Shown here: positions 3,661 to 10,911 of the stretch, in pieces
Layout: every line of letters starts with the position of its first letter
Numbering within the stretch: the first letter of the stretch is position 1
Source of the DNA: Candidatus Acetothermia bacterium JdFR-50
GTDB taxonomy: Bacteria > Bipolaricaulota > Bipolaricaulia > Bipolaricaulales > Bipolaricaulaceae
Length of the DNA: 10,911 nucleotides
Assembly (NCBI GenBank): GCA_002010365.1
Contig: MTNL01000097.1
Span: 1-10,911, forward strand
Direction: 5' to 3'
Translations under genes and position numbers: made by a program
Notes under the pieces: generated by a model
The model's input: the letters and a program-made list of their open reading frames with translations, nothing else
Told to the model about the DNA's origin: nothing
Database searches by the model: none

Positions 3661-3730
3661 TCACGTACGAAGTGAGAAGGTGTGATGGAAATTACGCTAA
3701 TTGACATTCCGAACCGAAGGGGTGACAAGG

Positions 3731-4348
3731 ATGAGAAAACCAGCGATATCGCTTGTGGCTCTTGCGGGGCTCCTTTTGCTCGGGGGTTGTGCTTTCTTCA
3801 ACCCGCAAGAGGAGCCCTTACGGGCGGTGATTTACACCGATCCCCAACCGCCTCGGGGGGATCCTCCCCTTGTGGTTGAGTTCTCCGCCGCTGGCTCGAG
3901 TGGAGAGATCGAGGAGTACATGTGGGACTTCGGTGACGGGCAGACCGCGCGGGGACGGGTGGTCTCCCACGTTTACAACGTCCCAGGCAATTACGAGGTG
4001 ACCCTGCGTGTGATCGCGACCAAAGGGGAGGATACCGCCCGCGTGACCGTGCATGTCAACTCCGCCTTGCCCGTGGTGGAGTACTTCCGGGTGGATCGCT
4101 GGATCGTCCACGCCACTCACGCCGTGTACTTCTACGCCGGGGCCTACGACCCCGACGGTGTGGTCCGGTTCTTTCATTGGAATTTCGGAAACGGCGAAAC
4201 CGCCACTTCCTCGAGCGGGGACATTTCTTACACGTACGAATCACCGGGGACCTACATCGTTACGTTACAAGTGGAAGATGACAATGGGGATTTGTCGGAA
4301 CCCGCCACACTCCAGATCCAGGTCCTCCCACCGTGCCCCTGTGACTAG
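3731..4348 (+). CDS. PKD-domain lipoprotein
   Basis: Predicted membrane-anchored surface lipoprotein of 205 residues. The signal peptide MRKPAISLVALAGLLLLGGC ends in a lipobox, L17-G18-G19-C20, so Cys20 would be lipidated. Two PKD (polycystic-kidney-disease type Ig-like) domains follow. The first covers about residues 34-109 with WDFGDG (65-70) and PGNYEVTLRV. The second covers about 114-198 with WNFGNG (150-155) and PGTYIVTLQVEDDNG. PKD domains mediate protein or carbohydrate contacts at the cell surface; no catalytic domain is present. The protein ends PCPCD. The ATG at 3731 has AAGGGGTG 6 nt upstream and starts right at the signal peptide, so it is preferred over the in-frame ATG at 3701. 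Its stop codon lies inside the proposed start of the next gene, an odd partner for a surface protein. Confidence 0.88.
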   Translation: MRKPAISLVALAGLLLLGGCAFFNPQEEPLRAVIYTDPQPPRGDPPLVVEFSAAGSSGEIEEYMWDFGDGQTARGRVVSHVYNVPGNYEVTLRVIATKGEDTARVTVHVNSALPVVEYFRVDRWIVHATHAVYFYAGAYDPDGVVRFFHWNFGNGETATSSSGDISYTYESPGTYIVTLQVEDDNGDLSEPATLQIQVLPPCPCD

Positions 4349-5318
4349 GGGAAGGATCGGGCTGGAGTTACCGGATATAGGCGAGAGCCTTCGGGATTTG
4401 GTCCGTCAAATCCCCCCGGGACGGGTGACCACTTACAAAGCCTTGGCCGAGGCCCTGGGGGATCCGGCGGCGGTTCGTTTCGTAGCCGCGTGGCTTGCTG
4501 TCCATGCCGATGAACTTCCGGTGCACCGGGTGGTGCACGCCTCCGGCGCCGTGGGAAAGGCCGAGTTCTCGGAGCCGGAAACATTTGCGGAGAAGCTGCG
4601 GCAAGAAGGGGTCAGAGTCGAGGGCCTTAAGGTTACCCCCCTCATCCGCTATTTCTTCGCGGGCTTTGAGACGGAAAAACCCCTGGAACGGTTGCGGCGT
4701 GAGCAGGAGGAGATCGCTCGCAAGATAGAGCTGAGGCCGTTGCCCGAAGGTGTGGAACGGGTGGCCGGCCTCGACGCGGCGTATTTGGATTCGGAAGGGA
4801 TCGGGATCTATGTCCTCTGTGATGGAAAGGGGGAGCCCATCGACTACGTGGAGGTCCGGCGGGAGGTACGCTTTCCCTATATCCCCACCTACCTTTCCTA
4901 CCGGGAGCTCCCCCTGTACCTCGCCGCGGTGGAGGAGTCCGAAGGGAAGGGGCTTGCGGCGGACGTGATCCTGGTGGACGGAAATGGGATCCTTCACCCC
5001 CGCCGGGTGGGGATCGCGGCGCATCTAGGGGTATTGCTGGGGAAACCCACGGTGGGGGTGGCGAAGCGGCTCCTCTGCGGTGAGGTGAACACCGAGGGCA
5101 TGGCTATCGGGGAGTGGCGGCCCGTGGTGTTGGATGATGAAACCGTGGGGGCGGCGATGCGCACCGCGCGCAACCGCACGATCTTCATCTCCCCCGGGCA
5201 CCTCGCCGACGTCCGAAGCTCCGTGGATCTCGTGACCTCGCTGCTGGTGGAGCATCCCCTGCCGGAACCCCTCCGCTGGGCCCATGAGTTGGCGACCGAA
5301 TCCCGAGGTCCCCGTTGA
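4341..5318 (+). CDS. alkyltransferase-like (ATL) domain fused to endonuclease V
   Basis: Predicted two-domain DNA repair protein of 325 residues. Residues about 15-107 are an MGMT/ATL DNA-binding domain: IPPGRVTTY (24-32), a recognition helix with the likely base-flipping Arg46, and PVHRVV (60-65). The alkyl-accepting Cys of PCHRV is Val61, so methyl transfer is not expected; it should act as an ATL-type sensor of O6-alkylguanine. Residues about 115-310 are a full endonuclease V, which cuts at the second phosphodiester bond 3' of deoxyinosine. The catalytic set is present: D145 in GLDAAY, E189 in SYREL, D213 and H219 in VDGNGILHPR, K242 in GVAKRL, plus the PYIP wedge (179-182). The GTG at 4341 overlaps the lipoprotein stop by 8 nt and has a poor ribosome site. 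An in-frame CTG at 4362 has GGAAGGA 5 nt upstream, so the start is uncertain. The reading frame upstream of 4341 is lipoprotein antiframe. Confidence 0.9.
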   Translation: MTRGRIGLELPDIGESLRDLVRQIPPGRVTTYKALAEALGDPAAVRFVAAWLAVHADELPVHRVVHASGAVGKAEFSEPETFAEKLRQEGVRVEGLKVTPLIRYFFAGFETEKPLERLRREQEEIARKIELRPLPEGVERVAGLDAAYLDSEGIGIYVLCDGKGEPIDYVEVRREVRFPYIPTYLSYRELPLYLAAVEESEGKGLAADVILVDGNGILHPRRVGIAAHLGVLLGKPTVGVAKRLLCGEVNTEGMAIGEWRPVVLDDETVGAAMRTARNRTIFISPGHLADVRSSVDLVTSLLVEHPLPEPLRWAHELATESRGPR

Positions 5319-5386: not shown

Positions 5387-6109
5387 ATGGCCATATTGGA
5401 AGTGCGGGATTTGATCGTCTCCGTGGAAGGCAACCGGATATTGAATGGGGTTTCTTTCGCTTTGGAAAAAGGCAGAGTTCATGCCTTGATGGGCCCCAAC
5501 GGTTCCGGGAAATCTACCCTCGCCTTTGCCTTGGCCGGGCATCCGGACTATACGGTGGAGGGAGGGCAGATCTTGCTCGAGTCCGAGGACATCACCCGAT
5601 TGCCGGCCTATGAACGTGCGCGGCGGGGACTTTTTCTTGGTTTTCAATACCCCCCGGAAGTGGAGGGAGTGAAGCTGCGGGAGTTCCTCCGATTGGCGGC
5701 GGCGAATTGCCATGCACCCTTCTGTGAATTCCAGAAGCTTTATCTGGAATCCCTTACCTATTTCCGCATGGAAGAGCTCGGGGAGCGGGAGCTCAACGTG
5801 GGTTTTTCCGGAGGGGAGAAGAAACGTTCGGAGCTTTTGCAGATGAGGGTTCTCCGCCCTAAAGTCGCCCTTTTGGACGAGCCCGATTCGGGGGTGGATG
5901 TGGACGCACTCCGTCTGATTGCGGCCGGAATCGAAGAGGCCGCCCGGTTGGGATCGGCGGTCCTGCTCATCACCCACTACCCGCGCATCCTTGAGCATCT
6001 TCCCCTCTCGCGGATCTTCGTGCTCGACGAAGGGAAGATCGTGAAAGAGGGGGGACCGGAACTCGCGTGGGAGATAGAGCGCAGGGGCTACGAGGCGGTG
6101 AGAGGATGA
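5387..6109 (+). CDS. sufC: Fe-S cluster assembly ATPase SufC
   Basis: ABC-type ATPase of the SUF iron-sulfur cluster machinery. It works in the cytoplasm bound to SufB (and SufD where present), and its ATP-driven dimerisation reshapes the SufB platform. The 240-residue protein shows all ABC motifs in order: Walker A GPNGSGKST (36-44), Q-loop Q87 in LGFQYPP, the signature SGGEK (141-145), Walker B ALLDEPDSG (161-169), and the switch histidine H197 in ITHY. LGFQYPPEVEG and DEPDSGVDVDAL are typical of SufC rather than of transport ATPases. Its ATG at 5387 lacks a clear Shine-Dalgarno sequence. It is the first of four genes, and its TGA overlaps the sufB start in an ATGA, implying translational coupling and balanced stoichiometry. 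Confidence 0.96.
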   Translation: MAILEVRDLIVSVEGNRILNGVSFALEKGRVHALMGPNGSGKSTLAFALAGHPDYTVEGGQILLESEDITRLPAYERARRGLFLGFQYPPEVEGVKLREFLRLAAANCHAPFCEFQKLYLESLTYFRMEELGERELNVGFSGGEKKRSELLQMRVLRPKVALLDEPDSGVDVDALRLIAAGIEEAARLGSAVLLITHYPRILEHLPLSRIFVLDEGKIVKEGGPELAWEIERRGYEAVRG

Positions 6110-7437
6110 AGAGGACCAAGGCGGGCTTGACGGCCGAGTTGATAGAGGAAATCTCCCGGGAGAAGGGGGAACCGAAGTGGATGTTGGAGCAACGCCTCCG
6201 GTCCCTGGAGGCCTTCCGTCGACTCCCCATGCCCCGGTTCGGCCCCGACCTCTCGGAGGTGGATTTCGATGAGATCTTCTATTACCTCCGCACCGTGGAG
6301 CCGGTGACGAGCTGGGATGAACTTCCCGAGGAGATCAAACGCACCTTTGAGGAGCTGGGGCTTCCCGAGGCGGAGCGAAAGGCCTTAGCCGGTCTCGGAG
6401 CCCAAGTGGATTCCGAGGTGGTGTATCGGTCCATCCTGGAGGAAGTCCGCGCCCAAGGGGTGATCTTCACCCCTATGGAGGAGGCGGTCAGGGATTACCC
6501 CGAGCTCGTGCGAGAACACTTCATGCGGGTCATCCCCCCCGAGGACAACAAGTTCGCCGCCCTACACGGGGCGGTCTGGTCCGGGGGAACCTTCGTCTGG
6601 GTGCCCGAGGGGGTGGAGGTGGCGATCCCTCTCCAGGCCTACTTCCGCATGCAGACGCAAGGAGTCGGGCAGTTCGAACACACCCTCATCGTGGCCGAGC
6701 CCGGGAGCTCGGTGCATTACATCGAGGGGTGTTCGGCTCCTCGGTACAGCAAGGTGGCGTTGCACTCGGGGATGGTGGAGATCGTGGCCAAGGAAGGGGC
6801 CCACGTGCGGTTTACCACCATCCAGAACTGGTCCCGCAATGTTTACAACCTCAATAACAAGCGTGCAGTGGCATATGCGGGGGCAACGGTGGACTGGGTC
6901 TCGGGGTCCCTGGGGAGCAAGGTCACCATGCTCTACCCCTCCACCGTGCTGGCGGGCAAGGGAGCCAGAACGGAGAACCTTTCATTCTCCTTCGCCCGGG
7001 ATGGGCAGTGGTTGGACCTGGGGGCCAAAGCGATCCACCTGGCTCCGGATACCTCCTCGCGCCTCATCTCCCGGTCGGTGGTCAAAGGGAAGGCCAAGAA
7101 CGTCTTCCGAGGTAAGCTCTTCGTTGCCCCGGAAGCCAGGGGTGCCAAGGGACACGTGGAATGTTCCACCCTGCTCCTCTCCCCAGAGGCCGAGACGGAG
7201 ACCATCCCCACCCTGGACGTGCGCAACCACGATGTGGAGGTGGGCCATGAGGCCACGGTGGGCCGGATCTCCCGGGAGCAGCTTTTTTACCTCATGTCCC
7301 GGGGTTTGGAGGAAGCGGAAGCCATGAGCCTCATCGTGAACGGCTTCGTGTCCCCTATTCTCAAGGAAATACCCTTCGAATACGCCATAGAGCTGAAGCG
7401 CTTGCTAGAGATGAGCTTCACGGAGGCGATCGGATGA
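6106..7437 (+). CDS. sufB: Fe-S cluster assembly scaffold SufB
   Basis: SufB is the core scaffold of the SUF complex, where persulfide sulfur and iron are assembled into a cluster before transfer to apoproteins. The 443-residue protein has the helical N-terminal part (WMLEQRLRSLEAF) and the long beta-helix core of the SufBD family. YIEGCSAP (205-212) holds Cys209, which corresponds to the proposed sulfur-entry Cys254 of E. coli SufB. Cys353 (VECSTLLL) and H381-E382 (VGHEA) match E. coli Cys405 and His433-Glu434; the Cys-to-Glu distance is the same, 29 residues. This identifies it as SufB rather than SufD. The ATG at 6106 sits in an ATGA overlap with sufC and has GGTGAGAGG just upstream. The longer in-frame start at 6067 lies inside sufC and is rejected. 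No sufD follows. Confidence 0.96.
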   Translation: MKRTKAGLTAELIEEISREKGEPKWMLEQRLRSLEAFRRLPMPRFGPDLSEVDFDEIFYYLRTVEPVTSWDELPEEIKRTFEELGLPEAERKALAGLGAQVDSEVVYRSILEEVRAQGVIFTPMEEAVRDYPELVREHFMRVIPPEDNKFAALHGAVWSGGTFVWVPEGVEVAIPLQAYFRMQTQGVGQFEHTLIVAEPGSSVHYIEGCSAPRYSKVALHSGMVEIVAKEGAHVRFTTIQNWSRNVYNLNNKRAVAYAGATVDWVSGSLGSKVTMLYPSTVLAGKGARTENLSFSFARDGQWLDLGAKAIHLAPDTSSRLISRSVVKGKAKNVFRGKLFVAPEARGAKGHVECSTLLLSPEAETETIPTLDVRNHDVEVGHEATVGRISREQLFYLMSRGLEEAEAMSLIVNGFVSPILKEIPFEYAIELKRLLEMSFTEAIG

Positions 7438-8648
7438 GGAATGTGTGTGACGATTTTCCGGTGCTCCAGCGAGAGGTGAGCGGGCGCCCTCTGATCTACT
7501 TGGATTCAGGGGCTACATCTCAGAAGCCGAAGCAAGTGATCGAGGCGGTGGCCCGTTTTTATCGGGAGACGAACGCCAACGTCCACCGAGGGCTTTATCA
7601 ACTGGCGGTGGAGGCCACCGAGCTTTATGAAGAGGCCCGCGGGAGGGTTGCGGCGTTCATCGGTGCCCACCCGGAAGAGACGATCTTCACCCGGGGGACC
7701 ACCGAGGCCTTGAACCTCCTCGCTTATTCCCTGGGCGAGATCCGAGTGGGCCCCGGGGATGAAATTCTGGTGACGGTGATGGAGCACCACGCGAACTTGG
7801 TTCCGTGGCAGGTTTTGTCCCAGCGTAAAGGGGCAATACTCCGCGCCGTGGGGATCACCTCAGAAGGGGAGTTGGACTTGGAGGATTTCCGCCGAAAACT
7901 GACGTCCCGGACGCGGATCGTCGCCGTCACCCATGTCTCCAACGTGCTGGGCACGGTGAACCCAATCCCCGAAATCGCGGAGATGGCCCACGGGGTCGGA
8001 GCGGTGGTGGTTGTGGACGCGGCCCAATCGGTTCCACACATGGAGGTCAAGGTTAGGGAGTTGGGGTGCGACTTCCTCGCCTTCTCTGGCCACAAAATGC
8101 TTGGGCCCATGGGGATCGGGGTCTTGTGGGGAAGGAGGGAGCACCTGGAGGAGATGCCTCCCTTCCTCACCGGGGGCGAGATGATTCGGGAGGTGTGGAT
8201 CGACCGCGCCACTTGGAACGATCTTCCCTACAAGTTCGAGGCCGGGACCCCGCCCGTCGCCCAGGCGGTGGGGCTCGGGGCGGCGGTGGATTACCTCCAG
8301 GGGCTCGGGATGGAAGAGGTACGCCGCCACGAGGAGAGGCTTGTAGCGGAGGCCCTGGAAGGGTTGCTCGCCCGGGACTATGTGGAGGTTTACGGTCCCC
8401 GGGATCCCGGGAAGCGGGGAGGTGTGCTGGCCTTCAACCTCCGGGGCGTCCACCCCCATGATGTCGCTACCCTCCTGGATCAGGAAGGGATTGCCATCCG
8501 CGCCGGCCACCATTGCGCCCAGCCCCTGCACCGGCTGCTGGGGGTCCCCGCCAGCTGCCGGGTCTCCTTCTATGTCTACAATACCCGGGAGGAGATCGAG
8601 GCTTTCCTTTCCGCCCTGGATCGGGTGTGGGAGGCCTTGGGGAAATGA
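7434..8648 (+). CDS. sufS: cysteine desulfurase SufS
   Basis: PLP-dependent group II cysteine desulfurase. It converts L-cysteine to L-alanine and leaves a persulfide on its active-site Cys, supplying sulfur for Fe-S assembly. The 404-residue length is standard. Visible sites are YLDSGATSQKP (22-32), TRGTTEALN (86-94), MEHHANLVPW (116-125) with the PLP-stacking His region, VDAAQSVPH (194-202) with the PLP-binding Asp195, and Lys221 in SGHKMLGP as the internal aldimine lysine. The catalytic Cys361 lies in RAGHHCAQP, the group II (SufS/CsdA) form. The ATG at 7434 forms an ATGA overlap with the sufB stop, and the gene's own stop forms another with the next gene. The downstream SufU-like protein is its likely sulfur acceptor. 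Confidence 0.96.
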   Translation: MRNVCDDFPVLQREVSGRPLIYLDSGATSQKPKQVIEAVARFYRETNANVHRGLYQLAVEATELYEEARGRVAAFIGAHPEETIFTRGTTEALNLLAYSLGEIRVGPGDEILVTVMEHHANLVPWQVLSQRKGAILRAVGITSEGELDLEDFRRKLTSRTRIVAVTHVSNVLGTVNPIPEIAEMAHGVGAVVVVDAAQSVPHMEVKVRELGCDFLAFSGHKMLGPMGIGVLWGRREHLEEMPPFLTGGEMIREVWIDRATWNDLPYKFEAGTPPVAQAVGLGAAVDYLQGLGMEEVRRHEERLVAEALEGLLARDYVEVYGPRDPGKRGGVLAFNLRGVHPHDVATLLDQEGIAIRAGHHCAQPLHRLLGVPASCRVSFYVYNTREEIEAFLSALDRVWEALGK

Positions 8649-9055
8649 GCCCATATGAAGACCTGATCATCGATCACTGGCGGAATCCCCGAAACAAGGG
8701 GACGCTGGAAGCCCCCGACGTGGACGTCACCGAGGCCAACGTTCCCTGTGGGGACGTGGTGCGGCTCCAGCTTCGGGTACGTGACGGGGCTGTGGAGGAC
8801 GTGCGGTTCGACGGCCGCGGCTGTGCCATCTCCATGGCGGCGGCCTCGTTGCTCACGGAGATGATCAAGGGCAAAAAGCTCGAGGAGCTGCAAGGGATGC
8901 GCCAGGAGGACATCCTGGATGCCTTAGGTGGCGTGATAAAGCCACGCCTCAACTGTGCTCTCCTTTCTTACCGCACCCTCAGGAAGGCCCTGGATTCCCT
9001 GGGGGCCCGCGAGCGAATCCGGGGTCAAAAGGCCGGGGCCGAGGAGAAGACATAG
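8645..9055 (+). CDS. sufU: SufU/IscU-family Fe-S scaffold or sulfur-transfer protein
   Basis: Small protein of 136 residues that should accept sulfur from SufS (a SufU-type role) or scaffold a cluster (an IscU-type role). It begins MSPYEDLIIDHWRNPRNKG, the family's N-terminal signature. Three conserved cysteines are present: C35 in PCGD with Asp37, C60 in GRGCAISMAAAS, and C104 in LNCALLSY. These are the metal ligands of the fold. C60 to C104 is 44 residues, as in IscU (about 43). Bacillus-type SufU has about 18 extra residues there. Unlike IscU, the residue before C104 is Asn, not the His of HCS. It is therefore a hybrid-looking member; sufU is used because of its operon. The ATG at 8645 is an ATGA overlap with the sufS stop. 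A polar tail rich in Gly, Glu and Lys ends the protein. Confidence 0.9.
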   Translation: MSPYEDLIIDHWRNPRNKGTLEAPDVDVTEANVPCGDVVRLQLRVRDGAVEDVRFDGRGCAISMAAASLLTEMIKGKKLEELQGMRQEDILDALGGVIKPRLNCALLSYRTLRKALDSLGARERIRGQKAGAEEKT

Positions 9056-9089: not shown

Positions 9090-9937
9090 AGCCACGGCTT
9101 GTTTCACCCGTCGGCTCCTTTTGTTGGGAAGATGCGGGACCACAGTGCGGGCCAGTTCCGAGAACTCCTCTTCCGGAACTGCTGTGCTCCCCGGATCCGG
9201 ATTTCGCTTCCCACGCCCGAGGTACATCGCTCCAGGATCGGCACGTGGCGGAAGTCATAGAAATCGGCGTAATGGGCGATAGCGTGGTCCAAATACCCCT
9301 ACAGTCCCGGTACTCATCCCGGGGGCACGGAGGTTGTAATCGGTGAGAGCGAACACGAGCTCGTTCAGCCAGCGAGTGGTGTTCCTCCGAGGTGACATAT
9401 CCGGCCACGCTTCCCCCGACGGCGTCCACCCGGGTAGGATGGGCGACTGCTTTCCTGACAGCTTGGAGGATGTAGCCGATGCGACAGCCTTTCAGGTGTT
9501 CGCTCAAGGGCAGGGTGTGTTCTCGCTCCACTGGGACCTCTTCGGAAGCACACACCTCTATGGAGAAGGGACGCTCGCAGATTTTCCCCATAAGCTTCCG
9601 ATCCAATCGCTTCTCCCCACGGGAACAATGTCGCGCGATGAACTCCCCCACCCCCTGGGAGCGTCCACATACGCCCGGAAGCATCCTCCGCTGCCAAAGG
9701 ACGAACTCGAACCGCCGCTCGGCGTAGGGGAGGTTGGCCCCGGCCTGAGGATGTCCGGAGGACAGAAACTCCGTTTAGTACCGGGAAATATAGCCATCCG
9801 ACCTCTCCTGGGCGAGTATCAGCGGGATCCCGTCCCCGAGGGGCTGGAGAGACTCGGGGGGCCAGAGCCGCGGGGCGGAAGTCCGGCTCCAAGGGCGCTG
9901 CCATCTGGATTCAGGGAGCGCAGGGGCTCGGACATAG
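9090..9937 (-). pseudogene. decayed coding sequence, family not recognised
   Basis: The 956-bp stretch between sufU and the ThiF-like gene holds no intact gene. On the minus strand, protein-like segments follow one another in order in different frames. Near 9935 the reading starts MSEPLRSLNPDG. After a frame change near 9865 it reads LGDGIPLILAQERSDGYISRY, broken by an in-frame TAA at 9777-9775. The same frame then stays open to about 9378, including KRLDRKLMGKICERPFSIEV and KGCRIGYILQAVRKAV. A shift near 9377 continues as TTRWLNELVFALTDYNLRAPG. A further shift near 9295 gives YLDHAIAHYADFYDFRHVPI, and another near 9170 gives VPEEEFSELARTVVPHLP. Codon third positions remain mostly G or C, as in the neighbouring genes. 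I do not recognise the family. Sequencing or assembly errors could also cause the breaks, and the exact ends are approximate. Confidence 0.5.
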
Positions 9938-10011
9938 GTCGACTTCCTTCAAATGCCTTCTCCTCGCTCCCGTTTGCATCAGCCGTGTTCTTGGAGGCAA
10001 GATTTAGCGAG

Positions 10012-10911
10012 ATGCAAGAGAGGTTTTCACGGCAAACGCTTCTTTCCCAACTGGGAGAAGGGGGGCAAAGGCGTTTGGCGAGGGCACGGGTGTTGGTGGT
10101 GGGTTGTGGGGCCTTGGGCTCCCATACTGCTGCTGCGTTGCTTCGGGCTGGAGTGCGGCGGCTAGTTCTAGTGGATCGCGATATCCTGGAGCTCCACAAC
10201 CTCCACCGTGTTGCCCTCTACATCGAAGAGGACCTGGGCCGGCCCAAGGCCGAGGCCCTGGCGGAAAGGCTCCGTCAGGTGGATGTTTCTGCGGAAATCG
10301 AGGTTCAAGTGGCTCACTTCGGGCCCCGGGAGGCGGAGGCCTTGGTCCCGGAGGTGGACCTCGTGGTGGACGGCCTAGACAACATGGAGACTCGCTATCT
10401 TCTCAACGACGCCTGCGTGAAGCACGGGGTCCCCTGGATCTACACCGCGGTCCTGGGGATGGCAGGGATGATGATGGCTATTGTCCCGGGGAAAGGGCCG
10501 TGCCTGCGGTGCCTCTTCCCGAGCCCCCCTCCCCCGGGGACCCTTCCCACCTGCGCCACCCACGGGATCCTGGGACCCGTACCCAAAGCGATGGGGGCGC
10601 TCCAGGCGGCCCTGGCCATCCGGCTCCTGGTGGCCGGGAAGATCCCCTTAGGGAGGCTCTACCAGTTCGACCTGTGGGAGATGGATTTCCGGGAGCTTTC
10701 TGTCTCCCGTCGCGGTGATTGTCCTGCCTGTGGGCGCGGCGAGTACGAGTTTCTCACGGAGTCCTCACGTACGGTGACCCTCTGTGGGGACGCGGTTCAC
10801 ATCCTCCCACGAGTGAGTGCCCCGGTGGACTTGGAGGAACTCGAACATCGTCTCGCGGGCCTAGGCGAGGTACGGCGGGGGAATGGCGTCCTCTTCTTCG
10901 ATGTGGACGGA
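10012..10911 (+). CDS. ThiF/MoeB/HesA-family E1-like adenylyltransferase (runs off right edge)
   Basis: Enzyme that would adenylate the C-terminal Gly-Gly of a ubiquitin-like sulfur carrier (ThiS, MoaD or similar) before sulfur loading, for thiamine, molybdopterin or related synthesis. The 300 visible codons start MQERFSRQTLLSQLGEGGQ, the classic family opening. The ATP site VVGCGALGS (29-37) and Asp55 in LVDRD follow, then LHNLHR (61-66) in place of the usual SNLQRQ, and DGLDNMETRYLLND (120-133). Zinc ligands are C164-x-x-C167 and C237-x-x-C240. Cys181 in PTCATHGILGP is the likely catalytic cysteine. After residue 250 a C-terminal beta domain starts (LDLEELEHRLAGLGEV-like), as in longer ThiF relatives, and continues past the edge. 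The ATG at 10012 is chosen by family alignment; GGAGG lies 14 nt upstream, farther than usual. The specific carrier cannot be told from this window. Confidence 0.9.
   Translation, partial: MQERFSRQTLLSQLGEGGQRRLARARVLVVGCGALGSHTAAALLRAGVRRLVLVDRDILELHNLHRVALYIEEDLGRPKAEALAERLRQVDVSAEIEVQVAHFGPREAEALVPEVDLVVDGLDNMETRYLLNDACVKHGVPWIYTAVLGMAGMMMAIVPGKGPCLRCLFPSPPPPGTLPTCATHGILGPVPKAMGALQAALAIRLLVAGKIPLGRLYQFDLWEMDFRELSVSRRGDCPACGRGEYEFLTESSRTVTLCGDAVHILPRVSAPVDLEELEHRLAGLGEVRRGNGVLFFDVDG

Follow-up and report, generated by a model that had tools for sequence, protein, structure and literature searches.

An endonuclease V fused to an MGMT-type domain that lacks the acceptor cysteine in a family of Bipolaricaulota

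Contig MTNL01000097.1 of Candidatus Acetothermia bacterium JdFR-50 (assembly GCA_002010365.1) carries, in the stretch of 10,911 nucleotides analysed here and called the window, a gene for a protein in which an MGMT-type DNA-binding domain is followed in one reading frame by an endonuclease V. O6-alkylguanine-DNA alkyltransferases (AGTs) are single-use proteins, and alkyltransferase-like proteins (ATLs) have the same fold working without chemistry. In the window protein the acceptor cysteine is replaced by valine (motif PVHRV), the catalytic residues of the nuclease are present, and the genome also encodes an independent AGT that has its cysteine. The loss of the acceptor is family-wide and repeated within a retained fusion. 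We lean towards reading the fused domain as a former alkyltransferase that endonuclease V retains as an arm for reading DNA without transferring alkyl groups. Alkyl transfer by the fused O6-alkylguanine transferase domain would have been lost at an early stage in the evolution of the window's family, and the domain would have been kept as a non-covalent arm that binds the DNA on which the nuclease works, held at a fixed place at its side. Nicking on the 3' side of deaminated bases most likely remains the activity of the nuclease. In the window's branch, which has the arginine finger, the tyrosine and a small hydrophobic pocket residue, the arm may still test bases by flipping, and alkyl transfer would be left to the separate cysteine alkyltransferase of the same genome in a putative division of labour.

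An earlier note, made from the window alone, had described an MGMT-like domain with PVHRV joined in frame to an endonuclease V. This holds: in the open reading frame, which encodes 325 residues, the match to PF01035 (E 3.8e-15) reaches 55.9 bits against a cut-off of 27, and that to PF04493 (E 1.2e-55) reaches 188.7 bits against a cut-off of 23.4. The match to TIGR00589 (ogt), with 31.7 bits, lies below its cut-off of 46.4. Structural alignments extend the MGMT-type domain to about residues 10-108. In the predicted structure the junction (residues 99-123) is ordered and the two domains are docked, which suggests that both would form one rigid fold unit.

The nuclease half has the five catalytic residues listed in the note (Asp145, Glu189, Asp213, His219 and Lys242), which align with the catalytic columns of Thermotoga maritima endonuclease V, an enzyme that differs in having no N-terminal MGMT domain (2w35, 2w36). 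The chains 6ozf (titled D110N) and 6ozg (titled E89Q) deviate from the window protein exactly at the Asp213 and Glu189 columns, respectively, and 2w36 carries at the Asp145 column an alanine that we take to be D43A, with Asp145 presumably the equivalent of Thermotoga Asp43. Together with Tyr180 of the wedge motif, the five residues are identical in 28/28 aligned rows (27 fusions and the window's own).

A survey of 100 Bipolaricaulota genomes, one per species, yielded matches to the window protein in 61. In 57 genomes both domains lie in one frame, with contig ends truncating a few of these fusions, and because 56 of the 57 are further genomes, a fusion by chance, by a frame error or by assembly is ruled out. 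Counting G032, in which the contig ends after the MGMT domain, the fusion is found in 34/40 genomes of the window's family (f1), 5/6 of f2, 1/1 of f3, 10/10 of f4, 1/1 of f5, 2/2 of f6 and 5/5 of f7, and in 0/2 of f8 and 0/33 of f9; G032 is included among the 34 f1 domains and left off the trees and tables. Endonuclease V was not found in seven of the 40 f1 genomes (in G032 owing to the contig end) and is fused in all 33 that have it, so that the separate genes in close homologues by which the note would have recognised an assembly artefact were looked for and not seen. Each of the 60 genomes having an endonuclease V gene has a single copy, and no second one was found in the window's own genome, which is 63% complete; in three genomes of the phylum (G075-G077) the enzyme has no MGMT domain.

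In a protein database search, of which 120 of 853 matches were listed, the named relatives of the window protein are Candidatus Bipolaricaulota or Acetothermia. The row counts from this listing refer to 103 f1-type rows. Omitted are P0001 (the query itself, represented by its shorter copy P0002), P0014, whose N-terminus is foreign, and P0106, which lacks the N-terminus; 15 rows with cysteine (P0107-P0121) are counted apart. Among the 80 best loci from a scan across named genomes, 27 are fused, ten in lineages already counted and 17 elsewhere, namely in Planctomycetota, Thermoplasmatota, Methanobacteriota, Micrarchaeota and one record labelled Nealsonbacteria. A plasmid gene was considered and rejected: 21 plasmid records match, none across more than 80% of the query, and the five listed rows cover the endonuclease V part only.

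The absence of the acceptor cysteine, as claimed in the note, extends to the whole family. Among the 34 f1 domains the position is occupied by valine in 27, alanine in three, and leucine, glycine, isoleucine and serine in one each, never by cysteine. The database tabulation that the note had proposed gives the same picture, with 103 rows that are all non-cysteine (V 89, A 6, I 2, T 2, S 2, L 1, G 1), 15 further rows with cysteine among the matches listed, and the tryptophan typical of ATLs in 0/103. Elsewhere in the phylum, cysteine is kept in 9/9 domains of f2, f3, f5 and f6 and in 4/5 of f7 (serine in 1/5), and f4 has serine in 9/10 and cysteine in 1/10; those of the 58 fused domains of the phylum that lie outside f1 comprise a serine branch of nine and 15 others, 14 of which have cysteine. 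One Planctomycetales fusion (L152) reads PVHRIV, and the ten archaeal fusions among the best 80 loci all have cysteine.

On a tree of 67 fusions three changes between cysteine and other residues are needed, and on an endonuclease-only tree of 84 fusions, with archaea and Planctomycetota included, four are needed, three of them forced by starred branches; both trees were built quickly, leave several forks open, contain long branches and do not show the direction of change. We infer a loss from cysteine, because cysteine is found in all ten archaeal fusions, in most of the planctomycete fusions seen and in the AGTs. Two further variants were observed. In the serine branch (nine f4 fusions: L043, L048, L050-L055 and L059) about eight residues are missing past the acceptor segment and phenylalanine replaces the flipping tyrosine; four archaeal fusions (L180, L182, L188 and L204) read PCRRVV, with the cysteine retained and the neighbouring histidine changed to arginine.

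The domain is under purifying selection, as is the nuclease. Across six genomes of the genus, compared in 15 pairs, the median ratio of non-synonymous to synonymous substitution rates (dN/dS) amounts to 0.144 in the domain and 0.130 in the nuclease (rough values, as dS is about 1), and the ratio of mean protein divergence between domain and nuclease is 1.07 in f1 and 0.74-1.11 in four other families. Since dN/dS is near that of the nuclease and the divergence ratio lies within the range of the other families, the domain is not decaying, and no internal stops occur in the listed phylum-genome matches. Among the rows reaching them, Pro11, Pro25, Gly27, Thr31, Ala34, Leu39, Gly40, Asp41 and Pro60, and also, among others, Arg63, Val65, Gly69, Leu86, Glu89, Gly95 and Pro100, are 99-100% conserved, and the helix-turn-helix and the HRVVH..G segment rank with the most conserved positions. 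The copy P0002 starts at residue 20, yet Pro11 and Asp12 upstream of it are conserved (99 and 89%, respectively, of the rows extending that far). Position 73 is arginine in 88% of the rows and lysine in the window protein; tyrosine at position 74 (Ala74 in the window protein) is absent in 33/33 f1 rows and present in 12/14 cysteine fusions of the phylum.

The separate AGT of the window's own genome reads PCHRV. Such an AGT with cysteine is present in 37/43 genomes with a non-cysteine fusion vs 4/14 with a cysteine fusion (Fisher p 1.1e-4), G017 being counted as having none since its AGT sequence stops at the contig boundary ahead of the acceptor, and some genomes in which the search gave no AGT may be incomplete (G035 69%, G051 61%, G055 75%, G013 85% and G049 87% complete). 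After kinship is taken into account two independent pairs are left, so that this co-occurrence is only suggestive, and we make no firm claim linking cysteine loss to the presence of an AGT. The cysteine fusion is the sole PF01035 match in the five f2 fusion genomes and in G059, G061, G062 and G064, and G058 has a tryptophan ATL in addition to its cysteine fusion.

Three observations count against a DNA-reading arm that has handed alkyl transfer to a separate enzyme: the shrinkage of the co-occurrence to two independent pairs, the four of 14 cysteine fusions that likewise sit beside an AGT, and the net charge of the domain, which over the stretches as aligned is -3 in the window protein, with medians of -1 in f1, 0 in cysteine fusions, +2 in ATLs and +6 in standalone AGTs. 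A negative charge would be weak for a DNA binder, though cysteine fusions are also near 0.

How far the domain resembles an ATL bears on the note's own proposal, that of a true lesion-directed nuclease, in which an ATL-like domain would flip and hold O6-alkylguanine unrepaired and the tethered endonuclease V would nick there, apart from direct reversal and UvrABC. The closest structural matches of the domain are ATLs, whose fold spans its whole length (AGT structures are absent from the 50 rows of one structure comparison and included in a second one). The tyrosine and the arginine finger are kept in the window protein and in all six genomes of its genus; the former is used by AGTs and ATLs in base flipping, according to a review (PMC10779285). 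The hinge asparagine of human AGT is histidine here, and ATLs also lack it, as the same source describes, with tryptophan in most but not all of them. The note's interpretation is supported as regards the absent acceptor, the nuclease residues, the physical fusion, the fold, the retained residues and the constraint. The missing tryptophan, the charge and the finger, which is missing in 29/103 rows and present in 74, speak against an ATL-like sensor. So does the loop between Arg46 and the acceptor position, which the note had correctly described as lacking two residues relative to human AGT: it measures 14 residues vs 16 in 61/61 standalone AGTs of the phylum, 16 in 13/14 cysteine fusions and 19 in 18/22 standalone ATLs; across the fusions compared with these ATLs it is 14-15 residues long.

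A hint that the fused domain could stand in for an ATL comes from the genomes with and without the finger. The finger is lost in 11/33 f1 fusions on the tree, where four changes are needed, and a classic standalone ATL (PWQRV) occurs in 8/11 finger-less genomes and in 0/22 finger-keeping ones (raw p 1.2e-5), as if the fused domain substituted for it; of these 22, 16 were searched twice for an ATL and six were judged by match counts alone. Against this stand G007, G016 and G024, which have neither the finger nor an ATL that could be found, and, outside f1, G060, whose serine fusion (L138) keeps the arginine beside a tryptophan ATL. A further exception is G034, which keeps the arginine and has a divergent MGMT-like open reading frame of 154 residues (L255, 351-815; PWWRV; 31 bits to PF01035), unlike the AGTs and classic ATLs seen; counting it would make the finger-keeping group 1/22. 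Because three independent pairs remain after kinship correction (mean 1.5 the same way, 0 the other way), the association is a lead only, and we make no firm claim tying loss of the finger to the presence of an ATL. With the missing fingers, the charge and the absent tryptophan, incision steered by O6-alkylguanine is not supported, nor is a route separate from direct reversal and UvrABC in a genome that carries both a cysteine AGT and UvrC; we regard the lesion-directed nuclease as unlikely.

The opposite possibility is that, after the cysteine was lost, the domain only folds or stabilises the nuclease and makes no contact with DNA. The ordered docking in the model would fit such a structural remnant, as would an acceptor position that varies among small residues, the absence of the finger in part of the rows and the negative charge. 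The conservation of the helix-turn-helix and HRVVH..G segments speaks against it, as do a dN/dS about equal to that of the nuclease and the existence in the phylum of endonuclease V without the domain, and we hold it to be improbable. That the domain marks lesions for UvrABC while endonuclease V helps to cut in an XPG-like role (PMC10779285) is highly improbable: UvrC is present in the window's genome and above cut-off in 82/100 genomes of the phylum, and ATLs bind UvrA and UvrC as that review describes, but UvrC is nearly universal and its presence therefore says little.

Comparable fusions have been reported. In Ferroplasma acidarmanus a C-terminal AGT domain and endonuclease V likewise form one chain without the AGT N-terminal domain, but that protein is active in alkyl transfer (Kanugula, 2005, via PMC10779285), whereas the window protein has valine and no acceptor. 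Archaeal ATL-endonuclease V fusions (Tubbs, 2009, as cited in PMC10779285) embody the same concept, a nuclease with a sensor attached, and the review speculates on an XPG-like role or faster DNA scanning for them; compared by its description, the window's fusion differs in belonging to a bacterial family. Cysteine AGT-endonuclease V fusions of other Bipolaricaulota families, Planctomycetota and archaea have the same domain order and nuclease and differ in the acceptor, and Schizosaccharomyces pombe Atl1 and the Vibrio ATL (3gx4, 3gva, 2kif) have tryptophan for valine and a longer preceding loop, and are free-standing. Further background on ATLs and endonuclease V is found in PMC3950489, PMC7216122 and PMC8307549. 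Searches of the open PMC literature, outside which most subscription papers lie, listed none that deals with fusions of this kind in Bipolaricaulota or describes one having valine at the acceptor position. As far as these sources go, the idea of an ATL-endonuclease V fusion is already published for archaea, and the bacterial valine form would be a variant of it.

The positions of the features are collected in Table 1.

Table 1. Features of the fusion gene and its upstream neighbour (positions in the window)
Feature	Position	Strand	Basis
Whole gene: non-Cys MGMT-domain/endonuclease V fusion, 325 residues, GTG start (predicted)	4341..5318	+	Open reading frame, translation, Pfam
MGMT-type DNA-binding domain, PF01035, residues 19-91	4395..4613	+	Pfam, structural alignments
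Tyr32, position of the AGT/ATL base-flipping Tyr	4434..4436	+	Alignment; 103 rows: Tyr 86, Phe 15
Arg46, arginine finger position	4476..4478	+	Arg in 74/103 rows and in 6/6 genomes of the window's genus
Val61 (GTG codon) replacing the acceptor Cys, motif PVHRV	4521..4523	+	Alignment
Inter-domain residues 99-123, partly helical, ordered in the model	4635..4709	+	Structure model (block predicted local distance difference test, pLDDT, 97-98)
Endonuclease V domain, PF04493, residues 124-315	4710..5285	+	Pfam, alignments, structure matches
Asp145, catalytic by alignment	4773..4775	+	Alignment with Thermotoga endonuclease V
Glu189 (= T. maritima Glu89), catalytic by alignment	4905..4907	+	Alignment with Thermotoga endonuclease V
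Asp213 (= T. maritima Asp110), catalytic by alignment	4977..4979	+	Alignment with Thermotoga endonuclease V
His219, catalytic by alignment	4995..4997	+	Alignment with Thermotoga endonuclease V
Lys242, catalytic by alignment	5064..5066	+	Alignment with Thermotoga endonuclease V
PKD-domain gene with a lipobox-like start and an 8-base overlap with the fusion gene	3701..4348	+	Pfam

The neighbourhood was surveyed by searching 14 loci, ten of f1 and four of other families, for the genes of the window. A PKD match precedes the fusion on its strand in 10/10 further f1 loci and in 0/4 loci of other families; in G001 it begins 1.3 kb upstream, and adjacency is therefore not claimed there. Judged from its sequence, the PKD-domain gene likely encodes a surface lipoprotein. 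Downstream of the fusion, at 5387-9055, lie iron-sulphur cluster genes of the sufC-sufB-sufS-sufU-like type. Such genes adjoin the fusion in 4/4 other loci from the genus, one of them on a contig that stops within sufC, and they were not found beside it in six other f1 loci examined, apart from a weak match in G001. A ThiF/E1-like gene (PF00899) at 9937-10911 is cut by the window end.

Beyond the reading of the domain as a retained DNA-reading arm, a bolder one can be drawn, which we consider rather doubtful: a reusable, non-covalent damage-reading nuclease would have evolved in parallel three or four times, with a separate cysteine AGT carrying out the transfer and the fused domain dropping its suicide chemistry and guiding incision by endonuclease V to sites next to alkylated or otherwise flippable bases; in genomes that also have a dedicated tryptophan ATL, among them some of the window's family, base flipping could have been dropped too. 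Whichever applies, the fusions form a natural series within one phylum, with cysteine, with serine, with valine and the arginine finger, and with valine without the finger. Matched proteins from this series would allow asking what a transferase domain does for the nuclease once transfer is lost, and whether endonuclease V may be steered to alkylated bases.
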